A stretch of DNA of 27,395 nucleotides from a virus. The stretch is from positions 1-27,395 of the IMG/VR virus record IMGVR_UViG_3300048927_000176; one strand, given 5' to 3'. The first letter of the stretch is position 1. Each line of letters opens with the position of its first letter. Position numbers and translations under genes: made by a program. The notes below the pieces were generated by a model. It was not told the origin of the DNA. It made no database searches and was given only the letters and a program-made list of their open reading frames with translations. Below, in pieces: positions 4,489 through 6,574 of this stretch.

Positions 4489-4512
4489 TGCCACAAAACA
4501 TTGGAGGTCATA

Positions 4513-5028
4513 ATGGAAATCAGAATCGTACCTATAGATCAAATCAATGCAGCAGCTTACAACCCTAGAGTTGATCTTCAACCAGGCGACGTTGAGTATG
4601 AAAAGCTTAAGCAAAGCATTGAACAATTTGGATACATAGACCCTATCGTCTGGAATGAGCGCACAGGTAATATGGTAGGCGGTCACCAGCGTTACAAAGT
4701 TATGATAAATGAGCATGGCAGTACAGAATTAATGGTTTCTGTTGTTGATTTGGATGATCAACAAGAACGCCTTTTAAACATTGCTCTTAACAAAGTATCA
4801 GGACAATGGGATGATGAAGCCCTGGCTAACTTGTTAAGCGAGTTGAAGGATGATGGAGCAGACATATCTTTATCAGGCTTCGATGATGTGGACCTGAAAC
4901 AAATGCTAGGAGATATTGAGGTACCGCTTTTTGAGGAAGGAACTGAAGATGATCAGGGCGATTTGGGCGTATTAAGTTCCAAGCTAGTTATATGCCCTCA
5001 CTGTGGAGAGGAGTTTGAAGCGGATTGA
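4513..5028 (+). CDS. ParB/Spo0J N-terminal (ParB-like nuclease) domain protein
   Basis: The 171-aa protein has the phage-type ParB N-terminal fold: IRIVPIDQI at the start, LKQSIEQFGYIDPIVW (residues 32-47), and GGHQR at 56-60, the conserved box involved in nucleotide binding. Residues 81-132 are helical. The C-terminus ends in CPHCGEEF (161-168), a single CxxC that could be half of a zinc knuckle. Stand-alone ParB-domain proteins are frequent partners of phage DNA methylases and modification enzymes. The stop overlaps the TTG start of the Mom-like gene by 4 bp, so the two are translationally coupled. The frame opens at TTG 4501, but ATG 4513 follows TTGGAGGT and is clearly preferred. It probably directs or supports DNA modification; it is not a chromosome partitioner, since no ParA or HTH is present. 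Confidence 0.85.
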   Translation: MEIRIVPIDQINAAAYNPRVDLQPGDVEYEKLKQSIEQFGYIDPIVWNERTGNMVGGHQRYKVMINEHGSTELMVSVVDLDDQQERLLNIALNKVSGQWDDEALANLLSELKDDGADISLSGFDDVDLKQMLGDIEVPLFEEGTEDDQGDLGVLSSKLVICPHCGEEFEAD

Positions 5029-5633
5029 CACACCTTAAAATTGCATGGGCAACACATGAAGCGGCTAAGTTTGCATGTGAGAACTTCCACTATAGCAAAA
5101 GCCTTCCCGCTGGTAAGCTTGTCAAAGTTGGGGCATGGGAAGATGACAAGTTTATTGGTGTGGTCATATTTAGTCGTGGGGCCAACAGCAAGATCGGTTC
5201 ACCGTATGGACTGACTCAAAAAGAATGTTGTGAGTTGACTAGAGTGGCATTAACAGATCATAAATCCTTTGTTTCTAAAATCTTGGCCAAGGCTATTAAA
5301 TTCCTGAGAGAGTCGTCACCTAATGTGCAACTCATCGTTAGTTATGCTGATGTCGAACAAGATCATCATGGAGGCATCTATCAAGCTACCAACTGGATTT
5401 ATGAGGGGAAAACGGATGGGGAGCATTACTTTATTATCAAAGGCAAGAAGACTCACCCTAAGTCCATTCATTCTAAATATGGTAAAGGTAGCCAACGTAT
5501 TGAGTGGCTAAGAGCAAATGTAGATTCACACGCTGAAACATATACGACAGTTGGTAAACACAAGTATTTGATGCCTTTGAATAAGAAAATAAGGAAAAGG
5601 ATTCTTCCACTTCATAAACCTTATCCCAAATAA
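5025..5633 (+). CDS. Mom-like GNAT-fold DNA modification protein
   Basis: The 202-aa protein matches the pattern of the Mom family: an N-terminal FHYSKSLPAGKLVKVGAWED (residues 21-40), a central strand FIGVVIFSRG, CCELTRVAL (68-76), then SYAD (106-109) and HHGGIYQATNWIYEG (114-128). In phage Mu, Mom converts adenine to N6-carbamoylmethyl-adenine and makes the DNA resistant to many restriction enzymes; relatives are common in Firmicute phages. The only usable start is TTG 5025, overlapping the parB stop (TTGA); GAGGAG lies 11 nt or so upstream, so initiation probably depends on coupling. A 9-bp perfect hairpin begins 2 nt after the stop. The exact base modification made by this homologue is not known. 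Confidence 0.8.
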   Translation: MTHLKIAWATHEAAKFACENFHYSKSLPAGKLVKVGAWEDDKFIGVVIFSRGANSKIGSPYGLTQKECCELTRVALTDHKSFVSKILAKAIKFLRESSPNVQLIVSYADVEQDHHGGIYQATNWIYEGKTDGEHYFIIKGKKTHPKSIHSKYGKGSQRIEWLRANVDSHAETYTTVGKHKYLMPLNKKIRKRILPLHKPYPK

Positions 5634-5635
5634 AA

Positions 5636-5761
5636 AGGAGGACGCGGTAACGTCCTCCTAACACCAGGGGTGCTTCCCCACGGCTGAGATAGCGGTGCGC
5701 CACGCGTGGCATTTACAGTCGTCCGCTATCTCGTATTCCATATTAACGGAAAGCCGAGGGG
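5636..5761 (+). promoter_or_regulatory. Structured RNA leader with mutually exclusive hairpins over a Shine-Dalgarno
   Basis: Within 126 nt there are: a 9-bp perfect stem with 6-nt loop (5636-5644 with 5651-5659); a GGGG-TGCTT-CCCC hairpin (5667-5679); a 10-bp perfect stem GAGATAGCGG with CCGCTATCTC (5686-5695 with 5723-5732) whose loop contains the 12-bp palindrome GCCACGCGTGGC (5699-5710); and TTCC with GGAA (5736-5751). CCCCACGGC (5676-5684) can instead pair with GCCGAGGGG (5753-5761) at 8 of 9 positions. The latter holds GAGGGG, the ribosome site of the next gene, so the two folds would open or close it. GGGGTGC and GGCTGAGAT also match the 5' half of the TPP riboswitch, but the conserved 3' half is absent. 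A packaging (cos/pac) site is an alternative. Confidence 0.55.
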
Positions 5762-5768
5762 AACAGCA

Positions 5769-5987
5769 ATGAGAACAGATGAACAACATGAATTGCTTCT
5801 ACAACATGATCTCGAAGTGGCGGAAGGAATACTTGAATCTAAAGAGCAGTACCGCAAGATCGTTAAAGCAAGTATAGCCCAATGGGTTAAAGACCTACAG
5901 GCTGGACAGATAAAGATGAATACCGTTGCAGATTTGGAGAAATTGATTGAATTAGATATAAAGCTTCAAAAGGACGATATCATCTAA
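5769..5987 (+). CDS. Unknown 72-aa helical phage protein
   Basis: ATG 5769 lies 7 nt after GAGGGG (5756-5761). The open frame extends back to GTG 5706, but that stretch is the hairpin region and is rejected as coding. The peptide (starting MRTDEQHELLLQHDLEV) is charged and almost wholly helical, without cysteines or membrane segment. Small proteins of this kind often sit before the terminase genes; the function is unknown. Its ribosome site can be sequestered by the preceding RNA structure. Its last 4 bp overlap the end of the minus-strand membrane gene. Confidence 0.65.
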   Translation: MRTDEQHELLLQHDLEVAEGILESKEQYRKIVKASIAQWVKDLQAGQIKMNTVADLEKLIELDIKLQKDDII

Positions 5988-6574
5988 AAACGAGGGAGGT
6001 TACTTTCTCGTTCTTTTTCAATTTCTTCAATTATTGTTTTGTGTTTATGAAGATTATGATTTTTTAAATTACGATTTAGTATATTTAGTATTAGTACAAG
6101 GGAAAGGGTACCGGCAAGTAAAAGAATATTTTGTAATGCATTGCTGTCAAAACTTGATAGTATCTTTTCGGTAGTAGTAAACCAAGTTAACTTATCTTTT
6201 TTGTATTCTTCATTTGAAAGCACTGTTAACAGAGAGGATTGAAGGGCAACGGAAAGTGTCATAATAGTTAATCCTGCGGTCAATATAATCTTTACAACCG
6301 CTTCAACGCTCTTTTCAATTGTATTACCTAGCATAATTGACTTTACGCCTATCTTGGCTTTTTTAAAATCTTCTAGTGAAAGAGCTTCATAAGATAATGT
6401 GAGGTTATATGTATCTTCGTAAAAGGCAGATATTTGGGTGCTTTTCTGAAGAGGTCTGTTTAATTTTTTTGAAAAATTAACTGATGATATAATTTCATAA
6501 AGGATGAACCCAATAGCTACTAATAGGCTAATCCCCGTGAAATTTTCATTTATAATGATTGATAAGTAGTCCAT
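5984..6574 (-). CDS. Unknown three-helix membrane protein, antisense moron
   Basis: The 196-aa product has three predicted membrane segments, roughly residues 13-31 (TGISLLVAIGFILYEIISS), 91-112 and 147-166, with a soluble loop between the first two and a charged C-terminal tail. The start ATG 6574 follows AAGGAG on the minus strand at good spacing. It opposes all surrounding late genes and converges on the 72-aa gene with a 4-bp overlap. A membrane protein carried in reverse between packaging genes is typical lysogenic cargo, for example superinfection exclusion, but there is no direct evidence for that. No family is recognised. Confidence 0.7.
   Translation of the reverse strand: MDYLSIIINENFTGISLLVAIGFILYEIISSVNFSKKLNRPLQKSTQISAFYEDTYNLTLSYEALSLEDFKKAKIGVKSIMLGNTIEKSVEAVVKIILTAGLTIMTLSVALQSSLLTVLSNEEYKKDKLTWFTTTEKILSSFDSNALQNILLLAGTLSLVLILNILNRNLKNHNLHKHKTIIEEIEKERESNLPRF

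Follow-up and report, generated by a model that had tools for sequence, protein, structure and literature searches.

A predicted sense/antisense RNA pair upstream of terS in temperate phages of Bacilli

What do the hairpins crowded between a Mom gene and a small gene upstream of terS do in a Paenibacillus-type prophage segment? The window analyzed herein, namely the whole DNA stretch of 27,395 nt, carries the gene for a ParB-like protein (4501-5028), the Mom gene (5025-5633) directly upstream of the hairpin element, the element itself, a 72-aa gene, terS, terL, portal, and head genes in this order. A previous sequence-only reading had placed four hairpins at 5636-5761, and all of them were found: a 9-bp stem AGGAGGACG/CGTCCTCCT (5636-5659), a GGGG/CCCC hairpin (5667-5670/5676-5679), a 10-bp stem GAGATAGCGG/CCGCTATCTC (5686-5732), and a 12-nt palindrome GCCACGCGTGGC (5699-5710). 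The region 5635-5774 folded to -63.1 kcal/mol versus -42.3 +/- 3.8 kcal/mol in 200 shuffles (z = -5.4), none of which was as good. The 72-aa gene downstream (5769..5987, + strand) was assigned to phrog_1476 (hmmscan, E = 3e-28). A Pfam search with its product gave no match; an AF2 model of the protein consisted of two helices (pLDDT 85), and fold comparison of this model returned nothing significant or informative. Separately, an ORF for a 196-aa probable membrane protein lies on the minus strand between the 72-aa gene and terS (5984-6574), overlapping the stop of the former, and a similar reverse ORF occurs in the locus L207.

On the + strand, the element was predicted to form a leader with a three-way junction, P1-P2-P3, in which the ribosome site of the 72-aa gene is buried. 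The alternative pairing suggested by the sequence-only reading proved to be real, since the P1 5' arm TTCCCC-a-CGGCT (5674..5685), an anti-Shine-Dalgarno (anti-SD) sequence, pairs with the 3' arm AGCCG-a-GGGGAA (5752..5763) that holds the SD GAGGGG (5756-5761). P2 corresponds to the 10-bp stem (5686..5732) and can be drawn on both strands, as can its apical self-complementary palindrome, P2a (5699..5710), and P3 is a TTCC/GGAA hairpin (5736..5751). Comparison with relatives revealed strong conservation and covariation of the element: among 50 diverse relatives, 33 of 36 pairs had changes on both sides with the pairing kept, and the covariation score was 0.471 compared with 0.171 for shuffled sequences. 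Double changes were observed in 8/9 model pairs of P1, 8/10 pairs of P2 (99.4% paired in 49 sequences), and 4/4 pairs of P3, and the P2/P3 core was well conserved. Furthermore, the P1 arms paired with their own partners at -18.9 kcal/mol versus -11.7 kcal/mol when swapped (0/20000 permutations as good), and P1 appeared in 87 of 89 unconstrained folds. One mismatch (C-A or A-A) is kept within P1, together with numerous G-U pairs. The SD thus lies within a covarying helix, as in an SD-sequestering translational leader, and its mean unpaired probability in the folded leader alone was about 0.11-0.12. These comparative data support the prediction that translation of the 72-aa gene is off by default, with P1 hiding the SD.

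The element was closely linked to this one gene. Relatives of the 72-aa gene had the same element upstream, with compensatory changes. A DNA scan for the P2 motif, blind to the gene, retrieved 87 stretches, 10 of which gave no match to the covariance model R1; a phrog_1476-like ORF followed P2 at a near-constant distance in 72 of the 77 R1-matching loci, the other five being cut by a contig end or unparsed. When 399 sampled Bacilli genomes were searched with a second model, R2, 29 matches were obtained in 21 of them, and phrog_1476 itself gave 30 matches in 22 of the same genomes. All 27 strong R2 matches were located at a phrog_1476 gene, the two without the gene being the weakest of the 29, and a diverged copy in genome G153 was missed by R2. 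A search for phrog_1476 across the whole phylum hit 2/299 genomes, too sparse to add relatives. The prophages with the element belong to Paenibacillus, Bacillus, Listeria, Enterococcus, and lactobacilli; named carriers include the Enterococcus phages phiFL3A and phiEf11 and the Listeria phages B054 and LP041, in addition to a Latilactobacillus phage, a Parageobacillus phage, and phage-like plasmids of Bacillus altitudinis and Anoxybacillus. The gene upstream of the element varied among Mom, cytosine methyltransferase, and ParB-adenine methyltransferase while the element stayed, and this interchange marks the element as a constant module border.

Several individual loci departed from this arrangement. 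In L207 (690-3090, genome G389), one of the 27 strong matches, an IS21-type element with IstA/IstB-like ORFs interrupts phrog_1476 a few codons after its start, so that leader and gene lie ~2.4 kb apart. Two loci were devoid of the leader: in L048 (2980-3198), the ParB start (MEIRVLPIEQYN) runs straight into phrog_1476 sequence, probably through a deletion, and L018 (3001-3171) holds a broken phrog_1476 copy with stop codons. The metagenomic phages L050 and L051 carry a divergent version with P2 of GGTAAATAACAG/CTGTTATTTACC, in which the SD lies in a single long hairpin GTTCGCTAATCTC/GAGATTGGTGAAC whose loop again carries a minus-strand TATAAT, and the minus-strand terminator is retained. The gene was also found on the large plasmids L146 (Listeria), where it adjoins a DNA methyltransferase gene, and L147 (E. 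faecalis), with the leader altered or absent. On a 127-kb phage contig (L127, 8971-9014), a lone GAGATAGTGG..CCACTATCTC hairpin whose inner part is perfectly palindromic showed no leader features and is not part of the phrog_1476 leader family.

The sequence-only reading had treated the four hairpins as one switch-like RNA, whereas the wobble pattern and the minus-strand folds pointed to two RNAs on opposite strands. A G-U pair on one strand is an A-C mismatch on the other, and hence the exceptions to Watson-Crick pairing reveal the strand on which a helix forms. Read on the + strand, the exceptions in P1 comprised 29 G-U and 3 A-C, indicating that P1 forms in the + RNA, and those in the 9-bp stem, designated H1, comprised 1 G-U and 42 A-C, indicating that H1 forms in the - RNA (Fisher p 3e-16 for the contrast, a certainty that is overstated because the sequences are related). 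The complement of the GGGG/CCCC hairpin, S2, had 57 G-U and 2 A-C among its non-Watson-Crick pairs on the minus strand; the alignment (A5) was fitted to a model, and this count was scored symmetrically, neutral between the two kinds of exception. P2 showed 487 Watson-Crick cells, 3 A-C, and 0 G-U, and the lack of G-U is as expected if P2 folds on both strands. The 9-bp stem and the GGGG/CCCC hairpin accordingly belong mainly to an antisense RNA rather than to the leader, forming its terminator and its middle hairpin, respectively. More generally, as strand assignment through wobble pairs illustrates, what is predicted to be a 'riboswitch' can prove to be two RNAs that overlap.

Sequence features support the prediction that the minus strand makes an sRNA of ~101 nt (5632..5732) with three hairpins and a U-run, starting at P2 from a sigma-A promoter and ending at the H1 terminator. 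The promoter (5740..5769) comprises a -35 TTGCTG (5769-5764), beginning over the start codon of the 72-aa gene, and a -10 TAATAT (5745-5740) within the P3 loop, separated by 18 nt and followed after 7 nt by a +1 at 5732, which was inferred from the promoter and coincides with the first base of P2. The window's own promoter, TTGCTG-18-TAATAT, is of the weaker ones, its -10 matching at just 4/6 positions, and promoters close to consensus occur in some relatives, for example TTGAAA-17-TATTAT in L055. Among relatives the spacer was 16-18 nt, and 38 of 45 diverse copies had, at the fixed offset, a -10 matching at least 5/6 positions, compared with 2.9% of shuffles. At the other end, H1, also termed S3 (5632..5659, minus strand), overlaps the stop codon of the upstream gene and is followed on the minus strand by TTTTTA; double changes were found in 9/9 of its pairs, and 44 of 45 copies had an A-run of at least 4 in the 57-nt stretch holding the H1 5' edge. 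The three-hairpin fold, composed of S1 (the P2 stem at the 5' end), S2 (5663..5684), and the terminator, was obtained for the minus strand in 22/22 representatives, with a predicted sRNA length of 95-119 nt in nearly all of them, and the S2 loops were often GNRA (GUGA, GGAA, GCAA, GAGA; UUCG once). The predicted RNA would thus possess its own opposite-strand promoter and its own intrinsic terminator (H1 with the U-run), as is characteristic of a cis-antisense sRNA. A peptide encoded by the sRNA was considered and rejected, as the minus-strand ATG frame was not conserved in all relatives, and no other stretch of at least 11 nt within the window offered a second target. We found no literature report of a transcript from this locus, and the main text of the Enterococcus and B. 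licheniformis papers does not mention it.

With regard to known families, the window gave no match in Rfam 15 at the gathering score. The best sub-threshold match in 5400-6100 was to a snoRNA-type family (23.3 bits, E = 0.06), the matches at E <= 10 were at chance level, and phi29 pRNA (RF00044) was absent from all of them. The proposed resemblance to the 5' half of the TPP riboswitch did not survive, as RF00059 was matched neither at the gathering score nor at E <= 10 (5400-6100), and relatives have GGGTATC or GGTCACC where TPP requires GGGGTGC. What stood of the riboswitch or leader logic was the mutually exclusive pairing that hides the SD of the 72-aa gene and is kept by compensatory changes; TPP or another known riboswitch, lacking any Rfam match, did not. 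The RNA pair is a real, widespread element of phages of Bacilli that is uncatalogued in Rfam.

Every distinct relative tested had a perfectly palindromic P2 apex of 10-14 nt, with at least 17 different sequences (L144 being read separately), including ACGCGT, GCGCGC, GTGCAC, TGGCCA, TGCGCA, AGCGCT, and CGGCCG. A plain hairpin would need no self-complementary loop, and the simplest idea, by analogy with the HIV-1 dimer initiation site (DIS), would be the formation of kissing-loop dimers. The alternative that the palindrome is a site for the upstream DNA modification enzyme was rejected because, in an informal comparison, Mom-type neighbors co-occurred with several different palindromes.

Taken together, we lean toward the view that the small gene preceding terS is under translational control by the sense/antisense pair, with sRNA pairing most likely activating. 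The leader would fold P2, P3, and then P1, which buries the SD; the first sRNA-leader contact would probably occur at the P2/S1 loops, and pairing would then dislodge the 5' arm of P1, uncovering the SD whether or not RNase III cuts. The predicted sRNA is fully complementary to the leader 5' half including the P1 5' arm and ends ~20 nt before the SD. Since it would cover the leader 5' half and not the SD, pairing should free translation, and the modeled mean unpaired probability of the SD was 0.57 with the leader 5' half covered versus about 0.11 alone. In addition, because P1 is mismatched and G-U-rich and the sRNA is a perfect complement of its 5' arm, the sRNA should win strand displacement. 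From this geometry we infer activation as the most likely effect. Sequence, covariation, and signals establish two conserved RNAs, and transcription of the sRNA, its pairing in the cell, and the direction of control are predictions. A bolder version, in which the cis-encoded antisense RNA turns a phage gene ON by pulling away the anti-SD arm, counts genomes, and dimerizes through its palindromic loop, is rather doubtful as a whole. If it held, the sRNA would be made from every phage genome copy, so that its amount would report genome number and set when a terminase-adjacent protein is expressed, and the palindromic loop would allow sense/antisense homo- and hetero-dimers.

Known cis-antisense RNAs mostly repress, and a repressing sRNA is the possible, though somewhat unlikely, alternative that survives best: it would pair with the leader, recruit RNase III, and clear leaky late mRNA in the lysogen, with P1 as an independent second block. 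Cutting of the sRNA-leader duplex by RNase III could destroy the message, which counts against activation, and a promoter of constitutive type that opposes late transcription would fit lysogen silencing. IS200 likewise joins a 5' stem-loop sequestering the ribosome binding site with art200, which promotes transcript degradation (PMC12594629). However, the region covered by the predicted sRNA lies upstream of the SD and includes the anti-SD arm, so pairing would remove the block. It is improbable that the minus-strand RNA acts mainly in trans or structurally, as a dimer perhaps in packaging, loosely like phi29 pRNA, with the leader as a by-product; the self-complementary loop in every relative and the adjoining terminase genes would suit such a role, but the element is strictly linked to one start codon, P1, which the sRNA is unable to form, covaries on the + strand, and no Rfam family matched. 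A + strand-only translational leader binding a ligand or protein, with no antisense RNA, would explain the three-way junction with the SD in P1 and the conserved P2/P3 core, and is nonetheless very improbable in view of the minus-only wobble pairs of S2 and H1, the promoter and terminator flanking the same segment, and the lack of a known aptamer. A site acting at the DNA level (cos, pac, origin, or recombination site), suggested by the palindrome, the position just upstream of terS, and the swapping of the upstream modification gene at this border, is scarcely credible, because the linear records end downstream of the element by ~0.5 kb in Listeria B054 and ~1.2 kb in Enterococcus phiEf11 (assuming, for cos, that these linear records begin and end there), strand-specific wobble pairs require RNA, and the spacing to the start codon is constant.

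The sense/antisense pair would be an uncatalogued regulatory device, widespread among temperate phages of Bacilli, at the junction of late gene expression and DNA packaging. Were the sRNA an activator, the usual cis-antisense logic would be reversed, and the universal self-complementary loop makes RNA dimerization in a phage sRNA directly testable. The covariance model also serves as an annotation tool for this border in many prophages.

Among the known systems, CopA/CopT of R1 and Inc RNA/RepZ of ColIb-P9 are plasmid copy-number antisense pairs that inhibit a replication protein. The phrog_1476 pair resembles them in its predicted structured cis-antisense RNA over the leader, the expected loop-loop first contact, and the occlusion of the target SD, but is found ahead of a terminase operon in phages, where the SD should become accessible upon pairing. 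The short phage antisense RNAs sar of P22 and OOP of lambda target ant and cII, respectively; here, too, a short phage RNA is predicted to be transcribed against phage mRNA, whereas the covarying SD-locking leader, the target, and the hosts differ. The HIV-1 DIS is a hairpin with a self-complementary hexamer, and two P2-apex hexamers, GCGCGC and GUGCAC, are DIS hexamers; the loop context of P2 differs, the biology is unrelated, and P2 dimerization is putative. In IS200 tnpA, a 5'-UTR stem-loop hides the ribosome site and the antisense art200 promotes decay (PMC12594629), and the combination of an SD-hiding leader stem with a predicted antisense transcript over the same region is shared. IS200 differs in concerning an enterobacterial transposase gene that both elements repress, the opposite of what the geometry of the phrog_1476 sRNA predicts, as this RNA would stop short of the SD, pair with the anti-SD arm, and bear a palindromic loop; the two have no known sequence relation. 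The phrog_1476 RNA pair is a variant of known antisense control, for which the riboswitch reading was partly right and its TPP assignment wrong.
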